Of a stretch of 41,926 nucleotides of DNA, positions 10,468 through 37,884 are shown in pieces. Position 1 is the first letter of the stretch. Each line of letters begins with the position of its first letter. The DNA lies in the IMG/VR virus record IMGVR_UViG_3300010160_000090, positions 1 through 41,926 of that record; one strand, 5' to 3'. The notes below the pieces were generated by a model. It was not told the origin of the DNA, did not search any database, and was given only the letters and a program-made list of their open reading frames with translations. A program made the translations under genes and the position numbers. The DNA is from a virus.

Positions 10468-10761
10468 TTACAATTCAATGTCTGATATTGGCATTATCCA
10501 TTGACAAGTTTCTTCATTAAACCCTATATTGCCTTCGGGTTCCTGTGAATAAAAAGCGTCTCTAATAGGGTCATAAACCATTCCTTCACCAGCAAAATTC
10601 TTTCTAATGTTGCCGTTGTAACTTGTACGGATACAAGTTTGACCTCTGTAATTGCCATACCATTGCTCAGGCGTTAATCCATCGAGTAATTCATTTTCAT
10701 CTTTACCTGGGATAACTTCCGTTACAATATTATTTTTATCTAAAAATGCGTAATGTGCCAT
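10468..10761 (-). CDS. Fibre-associated small protein, copy A
   Basis: 97 residues: MAHYAFLDKNNIVTEVIPG, then RTSYNGNIRKNFAGEGM and YDPIRDAFYSQEP. This is the same family as the protein at 36605-36922 in this window (shared TSYN..IR..AG and D...D.F patterns). It is also a type I associate with aquatic phages, where it travels with tail fibre genes. Here too it follows a glycine-rich fibre gene with no gap. The function is not known; binding to, or folding of, the fibre partner is plausible. Between its stop and the portal start lie 66 bases with no clear signal. Confidence 0.65.
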   Translation of the reverse strand: MAHYAFLDKNNIVTEVIPGKDENELLDGLTPEQWYGNYRGQTCIRTSYNGNIRKNFAGEGMVYDPIRDAFYSQEPEGNIGFNEETCQWIMPISDIEL

Positions 10762-24346: not shown

Positions 24347-25360
24347 TTATGAAATAAGTGCTAACGCCTTATTCTTGAAACGGTCTCCAAGACCAGTAAC
24401 AATTTTTTCGGCTCTAGCGCGTTCAGGATTAGTCGAACGAACTGGCTTTGCCCAATCCGCATATTCGACTATCGTGTTATATGCCGCCCACTTTGTATTA
24501 GCAATATTTAATTGCGTAGGTGCTTTCCATAATCCCATTAACGTTCCGCGAGCAGTCTCAGCAAGGTTACGAGCGCGCTCTTGTTCTTCGTCAATAGGAA
24601 TTAATTTTTCAACGATAGCGGTAAATTGCTTATCCGTCATTGGCTGTGACAGAAGTTTTTCTGCTTCTACTTCAAACGCTTCGACGTACTTAAATGTAAC
24701 GCCAAGTGTTTCTCTTGCGAGTTGTACTTTGCTTCCTACCTTTGGAGTATGACGCCAAGCAAAAGAACTTGTTGCTTGATTAATAGCCATTGATAAAGTG
24801 TTTTGGCATACAACCCGAATAGGTGTAACCATAACGTTAAACGAACTTGTACCGTCGTGTGTATTCCACGCCATAAGATAAAGATTGATAGCGTCCACGC
24901 CACCAACGTTTAATCCTTCGGGCATTTTCATAGTCATAAAAACTTTACGACCATTATCAATCGAACCAGCAGTTTCAAATACAGCGCCCGATTCGTCAGC
25001 AATATTATTTAGAAAAGAGAAGGCTTCTAAATTTTGTACTGGCGTGTAACGAGAACCAACTACACCTAACGCTTCTGGAATAGAAGTCTTAGGATTGAAA
25101 CGGTAAGTCATAAATTTATCAGGAAAAATAATTTTATTATTCTTACCGTTTTTATCTGAAACATTACCGTTCTTATCGGGAACAATAACGCTAACGGGAT
25201 TTTCTGATTTCTTAACTTCCCAATCTAGGTACGCAGTCTTTAACGCTTCCTCTGCGGACAAAGCGCCTTCTGTGACCGTACCTAATTTATGCCACGCTAC
25301 TTCTCTGGCTGAGAAGAACGCTGTTGTACCATCTTGGAACTGCTCTAGTGCGTGTGCCAT
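24347..25360 (-). CDS. DUF932 (TIGR03299-type) phage/plasmid protein
   Basis: 337 residues. The start AREVAWHKLGTVTEGALSAEEAL, then FRFNPKT-like and VVGSRYTPVQNLEAFSFL blocks, and the IRVVCQNTLSMAINQA motif are hallmarks of DUF932. This family is common in phages and plasmids of actinobacteria and has no settled function. The C-terminal part (ANTKWAAYNTIVEYADW) is conserved as well. It stands between the small-gene block and a terminator, suggesting strong early expression. Confidence 0.88.
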   Translation of the reverse strand: MAHALEQFQDGTTAFFSAREVAWHKLGTVTEGALSAEEALKTAYLDWEVKKSENPVSVIVPDKNGNVSDKNGKNNKIIFPDKFMTYRFNPKTSIPEALGVVGSRYTPVQNLEAFSFLNNIADESGAVFETAGSIDNGRKVFMTMKMPEGLNVGGVDAINLYLMAWNTHDGTSSFNVMVTPIRVVCQNTLSMAINQATSSFAWRHTPKVGSKVQLARETLGVTFKYVEAFEVEAEKLLSQPMTDKQFTAIVEKLIPIDEEQERARNLAETARGTLMGLWKAPTQLNIANTKWAAYNTIVEYADWAKPVRSTNPERARAEKIVTGLGDRFKNKALALIS

Positions 25361-25913: not shown

Positions 25914-26344
25914 TTTATTTCTCCCTTATAGTAAGTGCCGTCTGGTTTAACCCAGATGTACGGCAAGTTGTTTTTTACTTTGAACTTGTAGAAATTAGAA
26001 TCTTTACGCACTAAATTTGATTGGTGCGAAAGATGTAATTGTCCGTGACCTAACCAGAAAGGCATTTCTGGATTGGTTGTAGTTACTTGTGCTTTGAATC
26101 GCGGTAACAAGGTGTCTTTATATCCCCGTGATATCCACTCTTCACAAATAACTATTGCGTATTGAATTAGCGCTTGTTCGTAATCGCGCCACATAACGGT
26201 ACAAGGGTGGTTGACCCAACCTTTTGTTTGACCGCGTATCGCATTAAGTATTTGTAATGCTTCTACGCGTTGCTTACCTAACCTTTTGTAATCTAAGACT
26301 TGCGCTGATTTGCGAAAGTCTGCGTACGGCAAAAAGGTTTGCAT
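25910..26344 (-). CDS. Pyrimidine-dimer DNA glycosylase-like protein
   Basis: 144 residues. MQTFLPYADFRKSAQVLDYKR, then LGKQRVEALQILNAIRG, WVNHPCTVMWRDYEQALIQY and the PFWLGHGQLHLSHQSNL block match the MSMEG_6728/T4 endonuclease V-type family. These enzymes remove UV-induced pyrimidine dimers by base excision with strand cleavage. A sunlit-water phage could use it to repair its DNA. It is about the usual length. Activity is inferred from the family; the catalytic residues were not assigned. Confidence 0.85.
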   Translation of the reverse strand: MQTFLPYADFRKSAQVLDYKRLGKQRVEALQILNAIRGQTKGWVNHPCTVMWRDYEQALIQYAIVICEEWISRGYKDTLLPRFKAQVTTTNPEMPFWLGHGQLHLSHQSNLVRKDSNFYKFKVKNNLPYIWVKPDGTYYKGEIK

Positions 26345-26566
26345 TTATTTTCTCGCTTCTTTGTGTGCTTGATGTAATGTGAATCTGCCTAACATTCTGC
26401 TACTAAAAATAAGGTTACTAACTACCGCTTGTGCGTGTTCGTAATCCTTATCATTAATAGCGCGAGCAAATATTTGACCTGCCATTTCAATATAAGCAAG
26501 GTCAAGCGTTACGTCGTGTACTGCCAGTTCGTCACATAACGGGCAATCTAAATCGGCGTATGTCAT
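26345..26566 (-). CDS. Hypothetical protein with N-terminal CxxC
   Basis: 73 residues. YADLDCPLCDELAVHDVTLD carries a CxxC. The rest is helical (MAGQIFARAINDKDYEHAQAV, GRFTLHQAHKEA). The ATG overlaps the previous stop. No family is recognised. Confidence 0.68.
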   Translation of the reverse strand: MTYADLDCPLCDELAVHDVTLDLAYIEMAGQIFARAINDKDYEHAQAVVSNLIFSSRMLGRFTLHQAHKEARK

Positions 26567-26826
26567 TCTGTTTTTCCTTGCTTTGTAAATGCGTCGTAGT
26601 AACAGTTACCACAAATTTGATATATTTGTGATTCCTTATTTTTTTGTAGTGCGTAAAAGACTGCTGTTTCATTACCGCAGAAATTACAATGCATTTGTTT
26701 ATCCCCCTTTTCGTTTTTATTAAAACAAGGAATACACAACCATTGTTGATAAGTTTCATAAAATTTGTTTGGAGAATTAATTGAACGTATTTCTCCGCAC
26801 CCGTTACATTTTCTTCTGATAGCCAT
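26563..26826 (-). CDS. Double zinc-ribbon small protein
   Basis: 87 residues with two zinc-ribbon motifs: CNGCGEIRSI with CIPCFNKNE, then CNFCGNETAVFYALQ with ICGNCYYDAF. They probably fold as two tandem ribbons. It is followed by a coupled gene (ATGA overlap). Such proteins may bind RNA polymerase or nucleic acid, but there is no direct evidence for a target. Confidence 0.72.
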   Translation of the reverse strand: MAIRRKCNGCGEIRSINSPNKFYETYQQWLCIPCFNKNEKGDKQMHCNFCGNETAVFYALQKNKESQIYQICGNCYYDAFTKQGKTE

Positions 26827-26839
26827 TACTTGTCCCCCT

Positions 26840-26980
26840 TTAAAGTTTCTTTACGCAAGGTGCGCAAAGAAAATGAGTAGTGCAGTAGCAATCTTGTTGC
26901 CCTTGTGTTTTTTCGGCTACTTCTTTATTGACGGCGATAGCCATTTCTGTATCGCCGTCAAAATCTTCCGCGTTATACAT
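26840..26980 (-). CDS. Small Cys-rich protein
   Basis: 46 residues. The start MYNAEDFDGDTEMAIAVNK is acidic, and the end CYCTTHFLCAPCVKKL has a CxC...CxxC group with a His. AAAGGAGAGC precedes the ATG. The function is unknown. Confidence 0.7.
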   Translation of the reverse strand: MYNAEDFDGDTEMAIAVNKEVAEKTQGQQDCYCTTHFLCAPCVKKL

Positions 26981-26990
26981 TTGCTCTCCT

Positions 26991-27482
26991 TTAGTTTTCT
27001 TCTGCGCTGAAGTCATCTACTTCAGTAGAAACGTCGTCACAATCAACGTCATTGTGGCGTCCGCAATAATCAATGCTGATATCAAAGTCACCGTCATCGA
27101 TTTTTTCTTCGTCAAAGTCAAGTGGAACAGTTAGTTCTGCTTCTACGTTAACTGTGAACGAAACTGATATTGTTTTAGTTAGTTCTATATCAAGTTCTGC
27201 GGCAAGTTCTTTTAGTTCTTCTACTGACGCTGAATCGTTCTCCTTGATATGTTCCTTAAGAAACTCTTCTACTGTATTTGTAACTTCTCGCAAACGAGCG
27301 CGGTGTGTATTAGACGCTTGCTCTGTATACTCTAAACGCTTTTTGAGAGATTCGATTGTATTGAAGTGAATCACAAACTCATCTACAAGGTCGCCAAACG
27401 AATGGTCCTTGATAAATTCTTCTGCGATTTGTGCTGGTGTTTGTTCTACTACTATTTCTGTATTTGTTATATCTGTAGTCAT
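26991..27482 (-). CDS. Acidic coiled-coil protein downstream of ribozyme 2
   Basis: 163 residues. The middle is a coiled coil (ESLKKRLEYTEQASNTHR, REVTNTVEEFLKEHI), and the last 45 residues are very acidic (FDEEKIDDGDFDISID). It could imitate DNA or act as a dimeric inhibitor. An AAAGGGAAAA site precedes the ATG. Its 5' leader holds the stem I hairpin left after cleavage by the hammerhead ribozyme at 27.5 kb. Confidence 0.72.
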   Translation of the reverse strand: MTTDITNTEIVVEQTPAQIAEEFIKDHSFGDLVDEFVIHFNTIESLKKRLEYTEQASNTHRARLREVTNTVEEFLKEHIKENDSASVEELKELAAELDIELTKTISVSFTVNVEAELTVPLDFDEEKIDDGDFDISIDYCGRHNDVDCDDVSTEVDDFSAEEN

Positions 27483-27503
27483 TTTATTTTCCCTTTGTTA
27501 GTT

Positions 27504-27520
27504 CTGATGAGGCTCATCAG
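27504..27520 (-). promoter_or_regulatory. Palindrome masking the ribozyme 2 catalytic core
   Basis: CTGATGA (27504-27510) and TCATCAG (27514-27520) form a perfect 7 bp inverted repeat around GGC. On the minus strand the CUGAUGA core of ribozyme 2 can pair with this downstream copy. That hairpin would compete with the active fold. The other two ribozymes lack it. Confidence 0.75.
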
Positions 27521-27562
27521 CAGTACCGTTCAGTACTGGACTCCCTTACGGGAGTTTCGCCT
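27510..27562 (-). ncRNA. Type II hammerhead ribozyme 2
   Basis: Minus-strand order: AGGC (stem II), GAAA (27555-27558), stem III CTCCC/GGGAG with GTAA loop, cleavage site UC (27539-27540), stem I CAGTAC/GTACTG, core CTGATGA (27514-27520), GCCT closing stem II. Every conserved core base, including the G10.1-C11.1 pair, is present. Predicted cut is between 27539 and 27538. Stem II is the open helix, hence type II. It starts five bases past the stop of a 39-residue gene and lies upstream of the acidic coiled-coil gene. Confidence 0.92.
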
Positions 27563-27566
27563 TACT

Positions 27567-27686
27567 TTATTTTGCTTCTGTTTTATAGTCACACTTTGGA
27601 CATTGTTCGTATTTCTTCCAAGGAAGATTATCAAAATTAATAATCTTATTTGTATACATTTTCGTTCCGCATTGAGGACATTTCAT
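27567..27686 (-). CDS. 39-residue zinc-ribbon protein
   Basis: MKCPQCGTKMYTNKIIN, then LPWKKYEQCPKCDYKTEAK: a textbook CPxCG...CPKC zinc ribbon. GAGAAGGTG precedes the ATG at good distance. It follows the preceding stop by six bases. The hammerhead ribozyme 2 begins right after its stop, so the mRNA end would be set by the ribozyme. The function is unknown. Confidence 0.75.
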   Translation of the reverse strand: MKCPQCGTKMYTNKIINFDNLPWKKYEQCPKCDYKTEAK

Positions 27687-27692
27687 TTAACG

Positions 27693-28058
27693 CTACACCT
27701 TCTCTTTCTCTTGAACGCTGTAAATTGAACCGCGTATTTCTTTGATTTCTGCATCTTCTTTCTTGATGAATCCGAAGTCCGCGCAGATGTAAACCTGACC
27801 GTCGATTTCGATTTCGTCACCGATTGAAATTGAAGTGTGAGTGCGAGTTGCAGATAACTTCTTTTCAATCTGGTTCCAGATTAAACCGCTATAAGTGTTT
27901 GTATCTTTGTAAATCCACTCGCAGATGTTTACGTCAGCGATTTCGTTGATGTTCTGACCAGTAAATGAACCAAGTTCAAACTCCACTGATGAAACGAAAC
28001 GACCAATCTCTGGCTTATCACCGAACGCTTTCCAACTGATTTTGATTTTCTTTGTCAT
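27693..28058 (-). CDS. Hypothetical protein
   Basis: 121 residues: TKKIKISWKAFGDKPEIG, then SVEFELGSFTGQNINEIADV, GDEIEIDGQVYICADFGFIKK and a final KEIRGSIYSVQEKEK. Mixed alpha/beta without Cys clusters. It looks like a small OB or beta-barrel protein by strand pattern, but I do not recognise the family. AAAGGGAGAAAC precedes the ATG. Confidence 0.68.
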   Translation of the reverse strand: MTKKIKISWKAFGDKPEIGRFVSSVEFELGSFTGQNINEIADVNICEWIYKDTNTYSGLIWNQIEKKLSATRTHTSISIGDEIEIDGQVYICADFGFIKKEDAEIKEIRGSIYSVQEKEKV

Positions 28059-28070
28059 TTGTTTCTCCCT

Positions 28071-28262
28071 TTAGTTTAATGAACCGAATTGGCGGATAAT
28101 GTTTGTAGCATTTTTTAATGCGTTTTTAACTGTGGAATTGTAATAAGTTCTTTGTCCTAAATATAAATCACCGAGCCAGGCGTCTATTTGAACTGCCCTT
28201 GGTTCTGCTGCTGGACGTTGTACGACTGTGTGTAAATCTTTGAGGTTTGATTTTGTTAGCAT
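28071..28262 (-). CDS. Small hypothetical protein
   Basis: 63 residues: KSNLKDLHTVVQRPAAEP, then IDAWLGDLYLGQRTYYNST and a helical end. An AAAAGGAGAAAT ribosome site lies upstream. It belongs to the run of short early genes that share this type of site. No family is recognised. Confidence 0.65.
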   Translation of the reverse strand: MLTKSNLKDLHTVVQRPAAEPRAVQIDAWLGDLYLGQRTYYNSTVKNALKNATNIIRQFGSLN

Positions 28263-28276
28263 TTTTATTTCTCCTT

Positions 28277-28474
28277 TTAATTAGTAGTTGAGTAGAATTG
28301 AACTGCGGTTAAAAATAAACCCTTGTCGAACTTAGGGTTTTGTGCTTGAAGCATTTCTATAATTACTTCTGTGTAGTAATCAAGCGCTTTTGTATCAAAA
28401 GCCAAACGGCGCTTTGAATCTTCGATAGTCCAACCGATTGACTTTGCGATTAGTTCGTAATCTTTCTTTGTCAT
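28277..28474 (-). CDS. Small hypothetical protein
   Basis: 65 residues, helical: KKDYELIAKSIGWTIEDSKRR, then LDYYTEVIIEMLQAQNPKFD. An AAAGGGAGAAAG site and a short gap place it in the same transcript as its neighbours. No family is recognised. Confidence 0.65.
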   Translation of the reverse strand: MTKKDYELIAKSIGWTIEDSKRRLAFDTKALDYYTEVIIEMLQAQNPKFDKGLFLTAVQFYSTTN

Positions 28475-28678
28475 TTACTTTCTCCCTTTTTCGATTTGCT
28501 CGTCTAACCAGCATTGGAGTATTGAAACGCTTGCTGTTAGTTCGTTAGCAAGTTGACCGAAATCTGAATCGTTAGTGAAATCGGTAATTGTTTTATCTTT
28601 CATCATCTTGTTTGCTTCTTGCATTAACATTCGTGCGTATTTAAAACTGCTACGAACATCTGACTTTGTATATTCCAT
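28475..28678 (-). CDS. Small hypothetical protein downstream of ribozyme 1
   Basis: 67 residues, helical: TKSDVRSSFKYARMLMQEA, then FGQLANELTASVSILQCWLDE. CAAGGGAT precedes the ATG. Its leader starts with the stem I hairpin produced when hammerhead ribozyme 1 cuts. No family is recognised. Confidence 0.65.
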   Translation of the reverse strand: MEYTKSDVRSSFKYARMLMQEANKMMKDKTITDFTNDSDFGQLANELTASVSILQCWLDEQIEKGRK

Positions 28679-28704
28679 TTTATTATCCCTTGTTTGTTTT
28701 AACT

Positions 28705-28757
28705 GAACTCGTCAGCAACCGCCGTTACGGTTGGACACCCTTTCGGGTGTTTCGTTC
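28705..28757 (-). ncRNA. Type II hammerhead ribozyme 1
   Basis: Minus-strand order: GAAC (stem II), GAAA (28750-28753), stem III CACCC/GGGTG with GAAA tetraloop, cleavage site UC (28734-28735), stem I CAACCG/CGGTTG, core CTGACGA (28709-28715), GTTC closing stem II. The fit to the hammerhead consensus is complete. The predicted cut is between 28734 and 28733. The element begins on the very next base after the TAA of the upstream gene and lies 27 bases before the next ATG. Confidence 0.93.
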
Positions 28758-29093
28758 TTAGTTATGTTTCATTCTGAAAGCGATTAATTTAATAATCGCT
28801 ACTGCGTCGTGATAACTTTGTACGTTTCTGAAATCGTACTTTTCTATTCCGTTAGGTTCATAAGCATTAATTCTGTAACCATCTACGCCTTCATATCTAA
28901 CGAAGATTGAAAAAATTCGCTTATCGTTAACTGTGTGACTGAATTGAAGTTGCTTTGGACGACGGTCTAATTTTGTACCTTCTGGACTATTACCAGCAAA
29001 AGCAATAATGGTATCTAATGCAAGTTCTTGTTTTGTTATAAAACTTGAAATTACTTTATTACTTGCGTCGTGCATTGTATTTGTTGTAGTCAT
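28758..29093 (-). CDS. Hypothetical protein between ribozymes 3 and 1
   Basis: 111 residues: DASNKVISSFITKQELALDTI, GTKLDRRPKQLQFSHTVND, FSIFVRYEGVDGYRINAYE, then FRNVQSYHDAVAIIKLI. Mixed alpha/beta and no recognised family. It is the first clear gene of the early operon. Hammerhead ribozyme 3 lies upstream and ribozyme 1 immediately downstream, so its mRNA would be cut out at both ends. AAAAGGGAAAAC precedes the ATG. Confidence 0.68.
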   Translation of the reverse strand: MTTTNTMHDASNKVISSFITKQELALDTIIAFAGNSPEGTKLDRRPKQLQFSHTVNDKRIFSIFVRYEGVDGYRINAYEPNGIEKYDFRNVQSYHDAVAIIKLIAFRMKHN

Positions 29094-29122
29094 TTTGTTT
29101 TCCCTTTTCTGTAGTGGCTGTT

Positions 29123-29184
29123 CTCATCAGTAACGGTTCGCCTGTCCGTTAGACACCGTGCCTTTTAGTGACACGGTGTTTCGA
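29123..29184 (-). ncRNA. Type II hammerhead ribozyme 3
   Basis: Minus-strand order: C then GAAA (29179-29182), stem III CACCGTG/CACGGTG with an 11-base loop, cleavage site UC (29152-29153), stem I TAACGG/CCGTTA, core CTGATGA (29124-29130), then GA. Core bases are all present, but the closing stem II is only about two pairs, weaker than in the other copies. The predicted cut is between 29152 and 29151. It lies in the leader of the first early gene. Confidence 0.85.
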
Positions 29185-29612
29185 TATAAGGTTGATTTAT
29201 TTTCTAAGGCTGGTTCACCATATTCCATTAACTTTTATTTGCATTGCGCTAAGTCGTGAAGTGTGTATCGCTCGCCGTTTTGATTTCTCTAACGGGTCTT
29301 GAATATCTAGTGCCTAATTTGTTTGTAGTGGCTCCTCACCTCTACAAGTAACCGAACGTCGTGTAACAGTTCGGCTTGGCGTTTTGATATTGGTATCGCG
29401 CTTCTGACTTTAGGTACTTGGTACCGTGCGGTGCTTTATTTTGTTTGGAACCGTTACTTGTAAAAGTTATCCGTTTGTCTTTACCTAAACTTGCTGGTGA
29501 CTTGTGGGGTTTTTACTTTGTCGGCTGGTTACGTGTTGAGAACTTTCCAAGATTTACTTCTTGGATTCTCTTGCCTTCTCTATTTAATTTAATTAGATTT
29601 ACTTTCTATCAC

Positions 29613-29650
29613 CCGATTTAATTCCCTTGGGATTTAAATGATTAAATCGG
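29613..29650. repeat. Hairpin B with CCCTTGGGA loop
   Basis: CCGATTTAAT (29613-29622) pairs with ATTAAATCGG (29641-29650) over 10 bp. The loop contains TTCCCTTGGGA, which recurs in the hairpin 70 bases further on. The shared loop with different stems suggests conserved RNA structure or a paired protein-binding site. Confidence 0.6.
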
Positions 29651-29692
29651 TTCACTAGTTTTGTAAACTAATCTTTGGCTTTTTTCTCTTCT

Positions 29693-29721
29693 GGTTCGCT
29701 TCCCTTGGGAATACCCGAACC
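29693..29721. repeat. Hairpin A with CCCTTGGGA loop
   Basis: GGTTCG (29693-29698) pairs with CGAACC (29716-29721). Between them TTCCCTTGGGA (29700-29710) can form its own small stem. It has the same loop motif as hairpin B and the same orientation. Confidence 0.55.
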
Positions 29722-29743
29722 GCGAGTGCCATATTAATTTGTA

Positions 29744-29772
29744 GTATTAACATTACCCCTAAAGTGTTACAA
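29744..29772 (-). promoter_or_regulatory. Weak candidate leftward promoter
   Basis: Minus strand: TTGTAA (29767-29772), a 17-base spacer, then TAATAC (29744-29749) preceded by TG. This is a sigma70-like layout of modest quality in the right place to drive the early operon. Other promoters in this region cannot be excluded. Confidence 0.28.
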
Positions 29773-29976
29773 ATACCAATACCGTTTATACCCCTTATTA
29801 GGGCGAGCCGTGAGCCTCAGTAAAGGGGCATATAAGCCTGTATGAGCCTGATAGGGGCAGGAAGTAGGTTCTTAGACCCCCAGACCCTTACGGGCATAAA
29901 AAATCAAGCAAAACAGATTTTTTTTGTTAACCTTAAAAAATTAAACACGCGCACGTTAAGCACATAATAAATTTAA

Positions 29977-30007
29977 TTGCGTTAATACCGTGTAACTCAT
30001 TTACAAT
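29977..30007 (+). promoter_or_regulatory. Candidate promoter of a leaderless rightward gene
   Basis: TACAAT (30002-30007) lies exactly six bases before the ATG at 30014. Transcription would then start at or next to the A of the start codon, giving an mRNA without a leader. TTGCGT (29977-29982) is a possible -35 with a long 19-base spacer. No ribosome-binding sequence is present before the ATG, in line with leaderless translation, common in actinobacteria. Confidence 0.5.
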
Positions 30008-30013
30008 AGCGCT

Positions 30014-30226
30014 ATGGCTTATTCATCTGTGGAAATGCGTTGCGGTGGTTTGGTTATTGCCGTTGGTACTGAACTTGCTTATCCAGACGCTATGGACGAT
30101 TTATGTGCGCGCACATTAAATCTATTTCGTGAAGGTGCGGCTACAGCAAAAGAAAATGATATTGATATTTCTAATATGCGATTAATCACTACCGATTATG
30201 GTGATGAATTAGAAGATGATGACTAA
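30014..30226 (+). CDS. Only rightward gene; small hypothetical protein
   Basis: 70 residues: SSVEMRCGGLVIAVGTELAY, then DDLCARTLNLFREGAATAKE and a strongly acidic end (GDELEDDD). Separate promoter and opposite direction suggest a regulatory or early role. It converges on the leftward nuclease-like gene, and the two overlap by four bases at their 3' ends. No family is recognised. The codon-level pattern and the promoter fit support a real gene. Confidence 0.65.
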   Translation: MAYSSVEMRCGGLVIAVGTELAYPDAMDDLCARTLNLFREGAATAKENDIDISNMRLITTDYGDELEDDD

Positions 30227-30603
30227 GCAAACTTTTTTCCATCTGTAACGTTTAAATAACCAACAGTTTTTTGTTTCAAGTTTGTATTTTCAAATTCCGT
30301 AGTAGTAGGAAGTTCTTTCATTTCCCACCTCATAGTAAATTTTCTTAAACTGAATCCCCATATACCATTCGGCGTTGAACAAATATAAACAGGAATCATA
30401 TCCATAATTTGTGCTTGGTTTATTAACCTGTCATATTTGGATTTTTCTATTAACAATTTATCGTAATGTGTCTTACGACATTTCAACTCGATATACATAT
30501 TTTGAGATAACGACAAACAATCATAAGGAGAAAATAAATCACCAGACATTATCAAATCTGGATATAACACTTCTAAAAACTTAAATAAACTTTCTTCATT
30601 CAA
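30223..30603 (-). CDS. PD-(D/E)XK-like nuclease candidate
   Basis: 126 residues. FSPYDCLSLSQNMYIELKCRK contains an Asp followed by E39-L-K41, the D...ExK pattern of this fold, then a helix with HYDKLLIEKSKYDRL and the strand MIPVYICSTPNG. It could be a small Holliday junction resolvase or repair nuclease. It is the last gene of the leftward late operon, ends in TAG and overlaps the convergent gene. The family call rests on a short motif. Confidence 0.55.
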   Translation of the reverse strand: MNEESLFKFLEVLYPDLIMSGDLFSPYDCLSLSQNMYIELKCRKTHYDKLLIEKSKYDRLINQAQIMDMIPVYICSTPNGIWGFSLRKFTMRWEMKELPTTTEFENTNLKQKTVGYLNVTDGKKFA

Positions 30604-31638
30604 TTAATCTAACCAAACTTTATAACTTGCGGTGACTCTACCTTTAACTGGGTCAATAAAATGTAATCGTTGTGAGGGTGTAGCACTAGCGGCAAGATGA
30701 ACTCCTGCGTAACGGTTATCAGATTCAGTTGAACCAGTTTGATAAACAGAACCTAATCCATTTGCCATAGCCCATTCTGCGTGAGTGTGATAGTGACCAA
30801 TGTAAACATCTCTAAATTCCCAAGCATAAGCACCAGAACGCCAACGGTTTGCGTGTTGAACTATTGCGCCAGGACTAGCAAAACCATTTCTTCCCACTTC
30901 GTCTCCGTGAATTAATAGCGCTTTGTAATTTCCTATTTCAACTCTTTGTATATCTTCTGGGCAATCTTGCCAAGTCAAACGCGTTTCTTTATTAAGTAAT
31001 TGTTTTGCTAATTCGTAACACATACGGTCAAAATTATCGCTACGTGGAACGTTGTCACGTTTGCTTCCTATACGTCCGTGATTTCCCCACTCAGGAACTA
31101 CTGTTACTTTTTTATAATTAGCAAGAGCATAACGAACTACATCTGTAACTAACCTTGAAACATTTACGTATTGTTCAAATAACGTCGAATCAATTTCAAA
31201 GGCTTGTCCTGGAAAATTAAATAAGCCTTCAATCATATCGCCACCAAACATAATTGTTACGTCATTAACGGGGTGGTCTGCTCTTTGTATATTAGTAATA
31301 GCAATAGCCTTACTACAAAATTCCATTACGCGTCTTTCCATAATTTTAGAATCGTATGAAGTTGTTTTTTTAGCGCCTTGCCAATCCGTTAAATGCCATA
31401 ACGATACTTCTGCTTTCTTACTTCCTTTAGAAAAAACTGGTTCTGGAACATTATTAATAGGTCCACTAGATAACATAGCGTCGAACGCCGCATTGTGAGT
31501 TGCTTCTACTAATTCGTCAACTTTATGTTTTGTTTCCATTAATTTCTTTTGCGTACGCATTAATGCTTTACGTAGTTCTAAAACGTCAGAAGATTCTATG
31601 CCTTCTGGTAAGTCTGAAAATTGTTTATCAAGACTCAT
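30604..31638 (-). CDS. Calcineurin-like metallophosphoesterase
   Basis: 344 residues. The metal-binding motifs appear in order: TDWQG (84-88, with Gln in place of the usual His), GGDMIEG (132-138), GNHGR (185-189), IHGDE (243-247) and GHYHTH (281-286). A coiled-coil N-terminus (EALRK-like, RTQKKLMETKHKVDELV) precedes the catalytic domain. Such enzymes cut phosphodiester bonds in nucleic acids or nucleotides and are frequent in actinophages. Its place past the lysis genes and next to a nuclease candidate suggests work on DNA. It overlaps the DUF6378 gene by 11 bases. Confidence 0.85.
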   Translation of the reverse strand: MSLDKQFSDLPEGIESSDVLELRKALMRTQKKLMETKHKVDELVEATHNAAFDAMLSSGPINNVPEPVFSKGSKKAEVSLWHLTDWQGAKKTTSYDSKIMERRVMEFCSKAIAITNIQRADHPVNDVTIMFGGDMIEGLFNFPGQAFEIDSTLFEQYVNVSRLVTDVVRYALANYKKVTVVPEWGNHGRIGSKRDNVPRSDNFDRMCYELAKQLLNKETRLTWQDCPEDIQRVEIGNYKALLIHGDEVGRNGFASPGAIVQHANRWRSGAYAWEFRDVYIGHYHTHAEWAMANGLGSVYQTGSTESDNRYAGVHLAASATPSQRLHFIDPVKGRVTASYKVWLD

Positions 31639-31891
31639 TATTTACCGCTATTTTTAAACCGTGTTCTATGTAGCCTTGTTTATCTATCCAAGAATCAATA
31701 TGTAAACCATTATTAAATAACCTTACAGTTTTAAGGCTATCCATAAGCAAAGCCACTTGATAAGCAGGAATAGGTTTTATACCAAGTAACGTTCCCCAAA
31801 TAATCCCTATAGTTGTAAAATTGGGTTCTGCGTCGCCATATTGTTCTTGGCGTTTGTTTAAAATTCCTTTTAAAGTTTCGGACAAGGGCAA
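31628..31891 (-). CDS. DUF6378-type protein
   Basis: About 87 residues. ILNKRQEQYGDAEPNFTTIG, IWGTLLGIKPIPAYQVAL, then MDSLKTVRLFNNGLHIDSWIDKQGY match the DUF6378 family of phage proteins, possibly related to MazG-like nucleotide hydrolases. The start codon is TTG with GAAGGGGAAC just before it. It overlaps the upstream small gene by 22 bases. Confidence 0.75.
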   Translation of the reverse strand: MPLSETLKGILNKRQEQYGDAEPNFTTIGIIWGTLLGIKPIPAYQVALLMDSLKTVRLFNNGLHIDSWIDKQGYIEHGLKIAVNNES

Positions 31892-32109
31892 GTTCCCCTT
31901 CTATGTGCAGAAAGAGATTCGTTGCTTGTTTTATAACCTTCATTTCTTAACGCTCTCATAATGATATTTAATGAGTAGCCTTTTTCCCAAGCGTTATCTA
32001 TTGCTTTTTTATCTTCTGGAAGAAGTGAATCGTAAAGTATTTTATATGGACAACGTAAATTAGGTGTACGTAATACTCTTAACATATCTATTGCTTCTGA
32101 TAGCGCCAT
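31870..32109 (-). CDS. Small putative DNA-binding protein
   Basis: About 79 residues from the ATG at 32109, chosen because GGAGG stands eight bases ahead. An ATG 15 bases earlier overlaps that site. LRCPYKILYDSLLPEDKKAI, YSLNIIMRALRNEGYKTSNE and SAHRRGTCPCPKL look like a helix-turn-helix with a C-terminal Cys pair, as in small phage regulators. The function is not established. Confidence 0.62.
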   Translation of the reverse strand: MALSEAIDMLRVLRTPNLRCPYKILYDSLLPEDKKAIDNAWEKGYSLNIIMRALRNEGYKTSNESLSAHRRGTCPCPKL

Positions 32110-32148
32110 TTGTTTTGCCTCCAAGGATAATGATAGCCCATAATTTTA

Positions 32149-32241
32149 TCAATAAAGGCATATACCTATATTATCTAAATCATCAATAGCGTCATCTATA
32201 TCTCGAAACAAAGGAATTAAATCACTAACAAATGTATCCAT
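32149..32241 (-). CDS. Tiny acidic peptide
   Basis: 30 residues: MDTFVSDLIPLFRDIDDAID, then DLDNIGICLY. Acidic and helical. TTAAGG lies a few bases before the ATG. It lies between a hairpin and the next gene. It may be real but is too short for firm support. Confidence 0.45.
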   Translation of the reverse strand: MDTFVSDLIPLFRDIDDAIDDLDNIGICLY

Positions 32242-32267
32242 TTTGTTAACCTTAACTTAATGCTTTA

Positions 32268-32304
32268 CTTGGGTGGAATAACTTCCCCGATTATGCCACC
32301 CAAG
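32268..32304 (-). terminator. Hairpin after the holin-like gene
   Basis: CTTGGGTGG (32268-32276) pairs with CCACCCAAG (32296-32304) around a 19-base loop. It lies seven bases past the stop of the holin-like gene. The U run is poor, so termination may be partial. It separates lysis genes from the nuclease/phosphoesterase set. Confidence 0.5.
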
Positions 32305-32310
32305 CAAACG

Positions 32311-32553
32311 CTATTTAGTTTTTTTAGAAACTGACGTAAGTTTCGTTTCTACTATACCAGCGACTATGCCAAACGCAGAATCTTTAGGATTTAATGCACG
32401 AATAGCAACTGGCACTACGGCGGATAATCCAGCACAAATTATTGCTTTCCAATCCGTTAATCCTGCTGTATAAACTGCTAACCCTGCCGCAATAAAACTT
32501 CTTAGATAAGAAGCAAGTGCCGCTTTCAATCCATCAATCATTTTTTTATCCAT
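32311..32553 (-). CDS. Putative holin (r1t-like)
   Basis: 80 residues. SYLRSFIAAGLAVYTAGLTD and WKAIICAGLSAVVPVAIRALN are two hydrophobic stretches with a basic tail (TSVSKKTK) and an ALNPKDSAFG motif, as in small phage holins of the r1t type. It directly follows the CHAP endolysin gene. Holins open the membrane at the end of infection. Three other small membrane proteins nearby are rivals for this role. Confidence 0.7.
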   Translation of the reverse strand: MDKKMIDGLKAALASYLRSFIAAGLAVYTAGLTDWKAIICAGLSAVVPVAIRALNPKDSAFGIVAGIVETKLTSVSKKTK

Positions 32554-32563
32554 AACTATCTCC

Positions 32564-33037
32564 TTAATTGGACCATTTTGGACGTACAGCCATTCTGACT
32601 GTACTAGGTGCGCGGTGTTTTAAATAAACTCCATCACCGTTTGCTTGCGAACCTTTTGAATCACCAGCAGTATTACCTTCGACAGTATCAATCAAATGAG
32701 TATGTGCGTTATAACCTAACGCTATGCCCGTATGAATTGATTTGCCTTCTTTATTAAAATCAAATAAAAGAATATCACCACGTTCTACTTGTTCTACAGG
32801 TATATTCATTTTATTTTTCTCAGCCCACGCTTCAAAAGATTCGCAACCAGCAAATCCTTTAGGCGACTGTTTAATCAAACTAATAGCGCCAGCCTGATTA
32901 AAACACCACGAAACAAACATAGCGCACCAAGGTTGCCCGTCTAATCCATACCATTTACCATATTTAGTTTTATTTACTGGTAATTCAGTTGTACCAATTT
33001 CTGCCTTAGCAATCGTTACTACTTCATTACGATTCAT
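32564..33037 (-). CDS. CHAP-domain endolysin
   Basis: 157 residues from the ATG at 33037, which has AAAGGAATCA in front. An upstream start is possible but overlaps the preceding gene. TTELPVNKTKYGKWYG, then QPWCAMFVSWCFNQAG with catalytic Cys38, GDILLFDFNKEGKSIHTGIA with His101 and a later Glu-Gly-Asn (119-121) make up the CHAP amidase/peptidase triad. It should cut peptidoglycan cross-links. No separate cell-wall binding domain and no signal peptide are visible, so holin-dependent release is expected. Confidence 0.85.
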   Translation of the reverse strand: MNRNEVVTIAKAEIGTTELPVNKTKYGKWYGLDGQPWCAMFVSWCFNQAGAISLIKQSPKGFAGCESFEAWAEKNKMNIPVEQVERGDILLFDFNKEGKSIHTGIALGYNAHTHLIDTVEGNTAGDSKGSQANGDGVYLKHRAPSTVRMAVRPKWSN

Positions 33038-33287
33038 TTGATTCCTTTGGTTTATTTCTTTTGTCCACCTTGGCAAAAGCGTCATTAATCTCTTGCGTAG
33101 TTAATTTGCCATCTTCTAAAAAGAATCTGGCAAGTGCTTCTACAACAGTAGCAACTCCAAGTGTACCTGCTAATACCACCGCTTTGAGTGTACTGATACC
33201 AACTAAAGCACCAGCACCTATAACGGATAAACCAGACGCGGCAAATACCGCAACGATACGCATAATTATATTTTTAACGTTTTTCAT
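33027..33287 (-). CDS. Small membrane protein, holin-like
   Basis: 86 residues. IIMRIVAVFAASGLSVIGAG and STLKAVVLAGTLGVATVVEAL are hydrophobic. The C-terminal part (EDGKLTTQEINDAFAKVDK) is soluble and charged. The arrangement fits holins of actinophage lysis cassettes. It overlaps the endolysin start by 11 bases. Together with the neighbouring two-segment protein it may form a holin/antiholin pair. Confidence 0.65.
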   Translation of the reverse strand: MKNVKNIIMRIVAVFAASGLSVIGAGALVGISTLKAVVLAGTLGVATVVEALARFFLEDGKLTTQEINDAFAKVDKRNKPKESNES

Positions 33288-33436
33288 TCTTCATCTTTCG
33301 GATTGCGAAAACGATATGTTACAGCCCAAACAAAAAGAGTAATCCATATTGCTAGACCAACAACTTGTTTGGCGCTACCATCTAAAACTACCCAAGCAAT
33401 AAACATACCTAAAACTGTCCAAAGTTGGTCAATCAT
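33284..33436 (-). CDS. Small two-helix membrane protein
   Basis: 50 residues. LWTVLGMFIAWVVLDG and VVGLAIWITLFVWAVTY are transmembrane segments with a short loop, ending in RFRNPKDEE. The stop overlaps the next ATG (ATGA). It is a candidate holin or antiholin because it precedes another membrane protein and the CHAP endolysin. Confidence 0.65.
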   Translation of the reverse strand: MIDQLWTVLGMFIAWVVLDGSAKQVVGLAIWITLFVWAVTYRFRNPKDEE

Positions 33437-33450
33437 ATCTCTTAATATCT

Positions 33451-35067
33451 TCAAGGTTTTCTTCTCCTTACTGACTCTTTACCGACAGCACCACCACCGC
33501 CAGACTTAGGACTACTAGAAGGTGTTCTAGTAGTAGTTGTGCCTACTGCGTTTATTGCGGCACCTGCCGCAATAACAGTTGCTACAACTGCCTTGGTTGA
33601 TTCCGTTCTTTCTTCTGTACTCATATCAGCGCCGATATTTGATAACGCTGTAATTGCTTCTGCTGGATTACTGAAAATAGTACTAACTAATTCTATTGGA
33701 TTATCAAGAAGAATTAATGCTGTTGCTATTTCTGCGGTAATAGTTACTTCATTACCATTTTCATCTTCTCTAATTGTAACGGGTTGTTCAGGTGGTAAAT
33801 CTGCGTATGTTAAACCTGCGTCAGCAATAGTTTGCGCTGTAATTGGTTCTCCATTTGCGTTACTTATTAAAGAATCAATTACAACCGTTTTTTCTTCTAA
33901 CGTTAACACGCCGTCAGCCAAAGCGTTATTTATAACTTCTTCTGTTGTTGGCGGTGTTTCTTCTACAGGCATAGGTTCTGGTAACGGTTCTTCAATAGGA
34001 AGTTCTTCAATAGGTAATTCTTCAATAGGAAGTTCTTCAATAGGAAGTTCTTCAATAGGAAGTTCTTCTATCGGTGGCAATTCAATAATAGGTTCTTCTG
34101 GCGGTGGTATTTCAATAATCGGAATGTCATCTATCGGCAAAATGTCATCTATTGGGGGAAGTTCATCATCAACAGGCGGAAGCGGTGGTAATTCTTCTAT
34201 TGGTATGTCAATAATAATTATAGGTGGGTCTGGTATTGCTACAGGGGGCGGTTCGTATGTAGGAATTAAAATTGGCGGTGGAGTTGGTTGTGGCGGTGGA
34301 GTTGGTTGTGGCGGTGGAGTTGGTTCTGGCGTTGGAGTTAACGTTGGAGTTGGTGTTGGCGTTGAAGTTGGTTCTGGTGTTGGTTCTGGTGTTGGTTCTG
34401 GTGTTGGCGTTGGTTCACCAGGAGCAGGTGGAATTATTTCTACTTGTATTACACCTGCTTGTTCCAAAGTTACTATTTCGCCAGTAGGCAATCTTGCGCC
34501 AGTACGAGTTCCATCTGGAAGATTATCAACAAGATAAGTAATACTCAGCGTTGTATCTGGATTAATAATTGCTGTAGTAATAATTGTAGTAAGTGTGGGT
34601 GTGTTTTGATTTCCATACGGTCTTGCTGTTAAATCAATTTGAAATCCTTCAACGCTAGTTGTAATAATAAAATGTTCATCAGGGTATTGAGATGGGTAAG
34701 CAACCCAATCTTGACTTCCTATAGATAGAGATGGCGTATTTGGATATGTCCAGTATGTTCCGTCAGGATTACCAAAAGTAATTACAGAATTAGTTGTAGC
34801 GTAAATGGCTTGGTATGTAACGCCAGCAAAAATAATACTGCTAGGCACAGCAACTCGATAAGAGATATCATCTCCACCGCAAGTTACTTGTGTTGTTACA
34901 GTAACAGTTCCGCTTTCATCAACCGCAGGTGGATTATTTATAGCGTTATTATTAGCCTGATTGGAATTTATGCAATCAGCGTAGGCTGGTTCAGAAAATA
35001 ATAAAGGAAAACACGATATTGAAACAATTAATAATATTGAGCCAAATAAATGAAACGCTTTTTTCAA
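33451..35067 (-). CDS. Secreted proline-rich surface-like protein with tandem repeats
   Basis: 538 residues. A signal peptide (MKKAFHLFGSILLIVSISCF, cleavage near AYA) is followed by a Cys-containing beta domain (about 35-205), a long Pro/Thr/Glu repeat region (TPEPTPEP, then PPPQPTPPPQ and many PIEELP units, to about residue 370) and a C-terminal domain (VLTLEEKTVVIDSL, TIREDENGNEVTITAEI) that ends in a hydrophobic segment (VVATVIAAGAAINAVG) and a basic RRRKP. It looks like a cell-surface protein made by the infected host or an unusual virion adhesin. It lies between tail genes and the lysis cassette. Its function is unknown. Confidence 0.75.
   Translation of the reverse strand: MKKAFHLFGSILLIVSISCFPLLFSEPAYADCINSNQANNNAINNPPAVDESGTVTVTTQVTCGGDDISYRVAVPSSIIFAGVTYQAIYATTNSVITFGNPDGTYWTYPNTPSLSIGSQDWVAYPSQYPDEHFIITTSVEGFQIDLTARPYGNQNTPTLTTIITTAIINPDTTLSITYLVDNLPDGTRTGARLPTGEIVTLEQAGVIQVEIIPPAPGEPTPTPEPTPEPTPEPTSTPTPTPTLTPTPEPTPPPQPTPPPQPTPPPILIPTYEPPPVAIPDPPIIIIDIPIEELPPLPPVDDELPPIDDILPIDDIPIIEIPPPEEPIIELPPIEELPIEELPIEELPIEELPIEELPIEEPLPEPMPVEETPPTTEEVINNALADGVLTLEEKTVVIDSLISNANGEPITAQTIADAGLTYADLPPEQPVTIREDENGNEVTITAEIATALILLDNPIELVSTIFSNPAEAITALSNIGADMSTEERTESTKAVVATVIAAGAAINAVGTTTTRTPSSSPKSGGGGAVGKESVRRRKP
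33987..34075 (-). repeat. 15-base tandem repeat encoding PIEEL units
   Basis: The plus-strand unit is TTCTTCAATAGGAAG, present about six times with small changes. It stays in frame, so copy number changes would lengthen or shorten the PIEEL stalk of the secreted protein. Confidence 0.85.
34274..34405 (-). repeat. 18-base and 12-base tandem repeats encoding Pro-rich stalk
   Basis: Three copies of GGCGGTGGAGTTGGTTGT (34274-34327, the last with one change) and three of GGTTCTGGTGTT (34370-34405) on the plus strand. Both are in frame and encode PTPPPQ and PEPT-type units of the secreted protein. Confidence 0.85.
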
Positions 35068-36924: not shown

Positions 36925-37884
36925 TTACACCGCCGTTTTCAAATAACGAATAGTAAGAGAACCACTACCACCTGACGCGGCAACGCTGGTATAACCACCG
37001 CCACCGCCACCGCCACCCGTATAAGTCGTTCCTGCTACTGCGGATACCGCACCAGAACCAGCGCCACCACCACCTGGACCACCAGAACCAGTAGTCACAT
37101 AATTAACAGCAGACCCACCGCCACCGCCACCGCCAAAATATGTATAACCAAATTGTGAATCGCCAATGCTAGTAACAGAATACCAATTTTGACTAGGAGT
37201 TGGACATACCCAACCCCACCCACCACCGCCACCTGTGTTAGTTCCTAAAGCCGCAACACCATCACCAGCAGAACTGCCTGTATATGTTCCACCACCACCA
37301 CCGCCAGCAGATTGTTCATAACTTGCACCGTTCCACCAACTTCCAGATGAAGTTCCACCTTTAGCACCCGTACTACTTGCAGGTGAACCGCCACCGCCTA
37401 ATGTGTATCCACTTCCATAAGTAGAACCTGAAATAGAACCGCCACCACCACCACCGCCTGTTGCAGATGGGTCTGGCACACCTGCCCCACGTCCACCACC
37501 AGGAGCAGTTACAGAATTAAATGTAGAAGCGGTACCACTAGTACCACTAGCACCGCCAGCGCCTTGTGTGAAAGCATAAGAACCAATTCCAAGAGTAGTG
37601 GCGTTTGATAAACTTACAGCACTTCGTATAGCCGCACCACCACCACCACCACCAGCAAAAATGTAGTTAGCAGTTCGACCACCGCCACCGCCACCGCCAC
37701 CAACAAGCATATATTCAATTACAACTGGACCACCTGCAACAGTTAAAGTTCCATTAGCAGTAAACGCCCTGTAATAATAAGTAGAATCGGAAGTTAAAGT
37801 ACCGCCTGTCACTATTGTTTTTGACGAACCTAATTGTCCAAAACCTTTTGCGGCGTTGTTTGCAAATGTTTGTAAAATTGGCAT
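36925..37884 (-). CDS. Glycine-rich tail fibre-like protein, copy B
   Basis: 319 residues. The N-terminal 55 (PILQTFANNAAKGFGQLGSS, FTANGTLTVAGGP) are followed by some 240 residues of Gly/Ser-rich sheet (GGGGGGG and GGAGSG runs) and a short hydrophobic end (SLTIRYLKTAV). The glycine-rich region should form stacked polyglycine or beta structures, as in adhesins of aquatic phages. It lies among tail tip genes, so it is a likely host-recognition protein. Copy A lies at 10761-11576 and shares no leader with it. Confidence 0.72.
   Translation of the reverse strand: MPILQTFANNAAKGFGQLGSSKTIVTGGTLTSDSTYYYRAFTANGTLTVAGGPVVIEYMLVGGGGGGGGRTANYIFAGGGGGGAAIRSAVSLSNATTLGIGSYAFTQGAGGASGTSGTASTFNSVTAPGGGRGAGVPDPSATGGGGGGGSISGSTYGSGYTLGGGGSPASSTGAKGGTSSGSWWNGASYEQSAGGGGGGTYTGSSAGDGVAALGTNTGGGGGWGWVCPTPSQNWYSVTSIGDSQFGYTYFGGGGGGGSAVNYVTTGSGGPGGGGAGSGAVSAVAGTTYTGGGGGGGGYTSVAASGGSGSLTIRYLKTAV

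Follow-up and report, generated by a model that had tools for sequence, protein, structure and literature searches.

The window analysed here comprises 41,926 nucleotides (positions 1 to 41,926 of the IMG/VR virus record IMGVR_UViG_3300010160_000090) and carries terminase, portal, tape-measure, RecT-like and exonuclease genes. A blastn search of positions 26000-33500 against the INPHARED phages returned no match. More than 599 relatives of the exonuclease occur in IMG/VR. The early operon contains three type II hammerhead ribozymes, HH-B, HH-A and HH-C, all on the minus strand (Table 1), which we assume from gene order to sit on one mRNA. HH-B is located between a noncoding leader of about 0.8 kb and the first early gene. 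This leader (29187-29990, minus strand) holds no convincing gene and ends at HH-B; the HH-B ortholog of the close relative L004 has a similar noncoding leader, while that of L023 contains a small ORF. A conserved structured RNA in the leader was considered and rejected, as DNA similarity in relatives is almost nil except for the last ~150 nt in L023. Predicted sigma-70 promoters near the operon were fewer than in shuffled sequences and hence uninformative, and none was convincing. A tblastn search for relatives of gene X gave no match, and a gene X homolog follows the HH-B ortholog in L219. For gene F1, a Pfam search yielded matches below the cut-off only, and the AlphaFold2 model (pLDDT 47) was too poor for a structure search.

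Table 1 Hammerheads, associated elements and neighbouring genes in the window
Feature	Position	Strand	Evidence or remark
HH-B, type II hammerhead	29112-29186	minus	RF02276, 31.9 bits; orthologs in L004, L023, L102, L219 and others
Gene X, 111 aa, no assigned function	28758-29093	minus	lies between HH-B and HH-A; its TAA touches HH-A
HH-A, type II hammerhead	28705-28757	minus	sequence; RF02276, 33.6 bits; covariation of the active fold; 0/300 shuffles
HH-A 3' tail, AGTTAAAA	28697-28704	minus	sequence and fold comparison
Gene Y, 67 aa, no assigned function	28475-28678	minus	first gene downstream of HH-A
HH-C, type II hammerhead	27510-27562 (with tail to 27504)	minus	RF02276, 27.1 bits; covariation
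HH-C predicted core-covering hairpin, CTGATGA-GCC-TCATCAG, 7 bp	27504-27520	minus	fold energies; covariation of core position 7
Gene F1, 163 aa, acidic, no assigned function	26991-27482	minus	downstream of HH-C
Gene F2, DUF932 (phrog_1221)	24347-25360		no hammerhead in front in the window

Reading the minus strand from 28757 to 28705 revealed for HH-A, in this order, GAAC, GAA, ACACCC-GAAA-GGGTGT, C, CAACCG-TAACGG-CGGTTG, CTGACGA and GTTC, corresponding to stem II (GAAC/GTTC), stem III (ACACCC/GGGTGT), the cleavage base C 28734, stem I (CAACCG/CGGTTG) and the core CTGACGA, with stem lengths of 4, 6 and at least 6 bp. Every core letter is present in the correct order, stems I and III are closed by loops and stem II is open; the RNAfold z-score is −3.85. 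The cut is predicted 3' of C 28734, i.e. between 28734 and 28733, the same bond that the initial annotation of this DNA had named when it proposed a complete type II hammerhead beside a stop codon and between two early genes. This placement was likewise recovered: the TAA of gene X ends at 28758, stem II starts at the adjacent base, and the next ATG, 26 nt downstream of stem II, is found at 28678, with gene Y following. The description of type II as a rare arrangement did not hold up, given that a pattern scan matched at least 120 IMG/VR stretches and that Perreault et al. 2011 (PMC3088659) found type II to match types I and III in its frequency in bacteria.

While a scan of the whole window with Rfam listed nothing, the scan of a 2.2-kb region returned the type II hammerhead family RF02276 three times, in every case below the gathering score of 37 bits. 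The initial annotation had suggested a covariance-model search and taken a score below threshold to speak against the motif; HH-A is matched by the model with an E-value of 8e-7 (one-genome scale), but its 33.6 bits fall short of 37. Both HH-A and HH-C lack the pseudoknot-type 3' tail around which the model is built, and we judged the cut-off too strict for HH-A because an alignment of the active fold from 15 distinct, gap-free hammerheads of identical length (HH-A and HH-C included) keeps 99.2% of pairs with compensatory changes. Slid controls of this alignment paired in 30-46% of cells. Compensatory changes occur at 12 of the 16 pairs (77 cells compared with 22±4 in shuffles), and the core is invariant except for position 7. 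Dinucleotide-shuffling the whole window 300 times produced no match at the stringency of HH-A (stems of at least 4/6/6 bp) against two in the real sequence, and a looser descriptor gave a single match over the 300 shuffles against three real ones. As judged from these sequence data, HH-A is an intact, genuine type II hammerhead and not a chance motif; taken alone, it is one more instance of the known phage type II hammerheads.

The other two ribozymes differ from HH-A in their peripheral elements. HH-B has the core elements CTGATGA, GAA and TC, and its stem III is long (CACTAAAAG-type loop); stem II measures only 2 bp, and loop I pairs with the tail in a GGC/GCC pseudoknot. HH-C has the same core elements and a stem II of AGGC/GCCT, and begins 4 nt past the stop codon of a 39-aa ORF. 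This ORF (27567-27686, minus strand; MKCPQCGTKMYTN...) encodes two CxxC motifs and had been missed by a 60-aa cut-off. Hammerheads occur patchily: RF02276 was detected in three of 49 records at an E-value of 0.1, and a descriptor search added L013 and L023. L004 carries hammerheads at two places matching the window plus a third, and the genes flanking HH-A are entirely different in the window and in L004. The third L004 hammerhead (10558-10612) contains an extra U between core and stem II (CTGATGA-T-GGTC), and a U-G pair takes part in the complementarity of its tail to the core. In L101, L110 and L157, the contig stretches each carry five to eight type II hammerheads, with two head to tail in one intergenic gap of L101.

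The position of HH-A directly behind a stop codon proved to be the usual placement of phage type II hammerheads. Among 408 such hammerheads with sufficient upstream DNA, 293 (72%) carry, at −2 to +6 nt of the stem II start, a stop that closes a frame of 60 or more codons, compared with 3.3% of random positions. Most frequently (85 cases), a TAG overlaps stem II by its G, which forms the first stem base. In the same pool, the downstream start codon follows at a median of 23-27 nt past stem II. The adjacency to the stop and the short distance to the next start therefore indicate that the ribozymes fill the intercistronic gap from the stop codon to the ribosome-binding site, and it follows from the size of the ribosome that one terminating at the adjoining stop would sit over the 5' portion of the ribozyme. 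The rule indicates where to seek such ribozymes and suggests a coupling to translation termination. HH-A and its L004 counterpart hint at a stem II that continues across the stop codon, but 108 hammerheads gave no support for this (z = −0.5), and the idea was discarded.

A second regularity concerns the 3' tail. In HH-C, the tail UCAUCAG is the exact complement of the core CUGAUGA, so that T7 is paired with A within a 7-bp helix. We define a core-covering subclass by a 3' tail that pairs with CUGAN over at least 5 bp with N7 paired, which includes HH-C. HH-A was rejected as a member: its tail and stem II form a core-covering helix of only 4 bp (CTGA/TCAG), and N7 is a C opposite T. A possible pseudoknot of loop I with the HH-A tail (UAAC/GUUA) is absent from the L004 counterpart. 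HH-A is probably an unblocked form, for which constitutive cutting would be expected.

Scanning IMG/VR for CTGAYGAG-NN-TCRTCAG with Y and R left free retrieved true hammerheads that were all T7/A or C7/G. For the form CTGAYGAG-NNN-RTCAG, the matches listed (at least 120 stretches) comprised 46 C/G, 50 U/A, three U·G and no C/A combinations (Fisher 5e-25), and C/A was still absent when these matches were clustered by identity into 43-89 clusters; two loci hold both the C/G and the U/A kind. A covariation count of N7 against the tail gave 100% pairing (39 UA, 33 CG, 2 UG), and none of 500 shuffles was as good. These pools are biased by the pattern scans toward certain stem III sequences, and the clustering handles shared ancestry only roughly.

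Hammerheads collected without selection on the tail fall mostly into two classes: stem I hairpins of 17-18 nt are usually combined with a stem II of 4 bp, and those of 21-24 nt usually with one of 2-3 bp. In the short-stem-I class, the core-covering helix reached a score of at least 6 (at least 6 bp) in 17.7% of cases vs 0.9% for shuffled tails, whereas such helices remained at chance in the long-stem-I class (1.2% vs 0.9%), which serves as a natural negative control. Pairing of loop I with the 3' tail, a pseudoknot found in the majority of type II hammerheads but not in all (RF02276), was supported over the pool (z = −9 vs permuted partners). The covariation of N7 with the tail is not explained by the active fold, because N7 may be any base in the hammerhead consensus and U7 is unpaired to the tail in a crystal structure of a pseudoknot hammerhead (PMC11300833). 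The alignments thus indicate that core-tail complementarity, including position 7, is conserved in a large phage subclass to which HH-C belongs.

The tail is also linked to the downstream gene. Relatives of F1 were collected by protein search alone, regardless of the tail, and a type II hammerhead was present directly 5' of F1 in all 27 with upstream sequence. Protein identity within this set falls as low as 34%, and the ribozyme is identical in several of the records. The 17 distinct ones checked, HH-C among them, each form a 5-7 bp core-covering helix in which N7 is paired (nine C/G, eight T/A), and their mean score was 6.44 compared with 2.94 for the null. The tails use several registers, among them that of a UCGUUAG form in which one pair is G·U, and F1 keeps an HH-C-type ribozyme while the gene upstream of the ribozyme varies. 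For F2, an association with hammerheads drawn from tail-selected loci was rejected as biased; a protein-only search found a hammerhead in 10 of 20 relatives, with a core-covering helix of at least 5 bp in nine of those ten.

The active and the core-tail folds of HH-C are mutually exclusive, and HH-C therefore resembles a natural self-blocking hammerhead. Nearest-neighbour energies, which ignore tertiary contacts and Mg2+, place the core-covering fold of HH-C at −25.2 and the active fold at −20.8 kcal/mol, favouring the tail fold by 4.4 kcal/mol; by nearest-neighbour energies, the two folds of HH-A are level (−21.3 vs −21.1). For the listed matches of the RTCAG form, the core-covering minus the active secondary-structure energy was −2.55±1.0 kcal/mol with C/G and −2.44±1.1 kcal/mol with U/A; we attribute this equal gap to the fact that stem II is all-GC more often when position 7 is C. 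Stronger tails accompany stronger stem II (p = 2e-4, stratified by GC), a balance that could partly reflect shared ancestry. Tertiary contacts, left out of these energies, would shift the equilibrium toward the active fold and may bring both states close to balance, which agrees better with a tuned or switchable ribozyme than with a lock acting purely after cleavage.

Taken together, we infer from the sequences that HH-A would cut the polycistronic early mRNA in cis between genes X and Y. On the upstream message, the new 3' end would lie just past its own stop codon and carry the stem III hairpin and a 2',3'-cyclic phosphate, and the downstream message would have a 5'-OH, followed by the stem I hairpin and then its own ribosome-binding site; after this cut, the halves would be joined by the 4-bp stem II only. 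As expected from bacterial RNA decay in general, both cut products would be protected at their new ends. HH-B and HH-C would cut likewise at two further junctions, and the efficiency seems to be set junction by junction, with HH-B stabilised by its pseudoknot, HH-A unblocked and HH-C restrained by its tail. The pairing of the HH-C tail with the core is predicted to give a fold incompatible with catalysis; HH-C therefore probably cleaves to a limited extent or in a switchable manner, or else the tail acts later and locks the cleaved product, and the core-tail helix may fit both. We assign a probability of about 0.7 to the joint reading that HH-A is genuine and most likely cuts the early mRNA in cis, that HH-B and HH-C do likewise, and that the HH-C tail limits, switches or locks cleavage. 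A further-reaching proposal, to which we give even odds, is that many phage type II hammerheads including HH-C are natural bistable ribozymes, in which the tail-on-core fold tunes junction cutting or gates it by a signal, possibly the ribosome terminating at the adjoining stop.

The most serious alternative, somewhat less than an even bet, is that the three ribozymes are ordinary hammerheads that constitutively yield single-gene mRNAs, and that the core-tail helix acts only after cleavage, when it would displace stem II, set the upstream message free and render the cut irreversible. Such a role would agree with stem II being the sole connection of the halves after a type II cut and with the prediction of the stem I hairpin and the core-tail hairpin side by side in the downstream product, and the 2011 model of single-gene processing requires no regulation (PMC3088659). 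However, a post-cleavage lock needs no narrow energy balance with stem II, and a tail transcribed a few nucleotides from stem II should compete before cleavage as well. A second explanation, which we regard as unlikely, sees the hammerheads mainly as conserved junctions of swappable gene cassettes, i.e. recombination points, with RNA cutting being secondary. HH-A and its L004 counterpart indeed sit between unrelated gene pairs, and the genes behind the HH-B orthologs differ between L004, L023 and L102, but the stems drift while pairing stays, which preserves RNA structure rather than DNA identity, and the constancy of HH-C in front of F1 behind varying upstream genes fits a cis effect on F1.

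Template switching can produce matched changes in quasi-palindromes, and CTGAY-N-RTCAG is also a perfect dyad in DNA, so that the core-tail repeat might be a palindromic protein-binding site or a template-switch product that overlaps a hammerhead by accident. We consider this improbable, since no CTGAY-N6-RTCAG repeat was found outside a hammerhead-like context in 1.15 Mb of hammerhead-bearing contigs, pairing is kept over several registers and loop lengths, G-U pairs included, before one gene family, and it is at chance in the long-stem-I class. That the elements are decayed or chance hammerhead-like sequences without activity is very unlikely despite scores under the Rfam cut-off and four inactive cases among 18 consensus-like hammerheads in the 2011 tests (PMC3088659), as none of the 300 shuffles equalled HH-A, compensatory changes leave the core unchanged and a ribozyme precedes F1 in all 27 relatives.

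Cis-cleavage of the early mRNA with a tail-controlled HH-C can be placed among known systems. Phage type II hammerheads, their clustering and the likely cutting of long phage transcripts are already known, the cutting of operons having been proposed in 2011, and tandem hammerhead arrays of bacterial genomes were found to cleave in vitro and in one case also in E. coli (PMC3088659). The RF02276 ribozymes described there share the open stem II, the core CUGANGA/GAA/UH and clustered copies flanking phage genes on one transcript, and their pseudoknot of loop I with the 3' tail recurs in HH-B. The HH-C class departs from them: its stem I hairpin is short, its stem II has 4 bp, and a tail complementary to the core, N7 included, takes the place of the pseudoknot tail; in the passages of PMC3088659 covered here, no core-covering tail is described for type II. 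The triple array at ardA of Agrobacterium tumefaciens, which cuts in E. coli, also has three hammerheads flanking small genes on one mRNA, but its genes differ from those of the present operon and, in the same passages, no core-covering tail is described for it. The crystal structure of a pseudoknot hammerhead has the same catalytic core and is relevant to HH-B; in it, U7 stacks on C3 and has no tail partner, so that the N7-tail covariation cannot derive from that active structure (PMC11300833). The nearest analogue is engineered: a designed neighbouring sequence that pairs with the ribozyme lowers cleavage in the manner proposed here for the brake (PMC7192461), although this competitor is synthetic and upstream, whereas the complement described here is natural, downstream and covarying with the core.

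A word search of the main text of PMC3088659 found no mention of stop codons, and neither the stop-codon rule nor a natural core-covering tail was found in the literature searched, which is weak evidence in both cases as most subscription journals lie outside its coverage. The role of hammerheads in phages and bacteria was described as an open question in 2017 (PMC6155905), and the core-tail covariation offers a sequence-level handle on their function in phages. In some phages, selection appears to maintain a fold by which the ribozyme is switched off or its product locked; if the brake is true, it would represent a natural counterpart of engineered self-blocked ribozymes.

Elsewhere in the window, a small gene at 25910-26344 matches the Pfam family Pyr_excise (pyrimidine dimer DNA glycosylase) with an E-value of 4e-26. 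Dense tandem repeats of 15-18 nt were observed at 33957-34431 inside a 538-aa gene and glycine-rich (ACCGCC-type) repeats at 36997-37710 in a 319-aa gene, both of which probably encode structural proteins.
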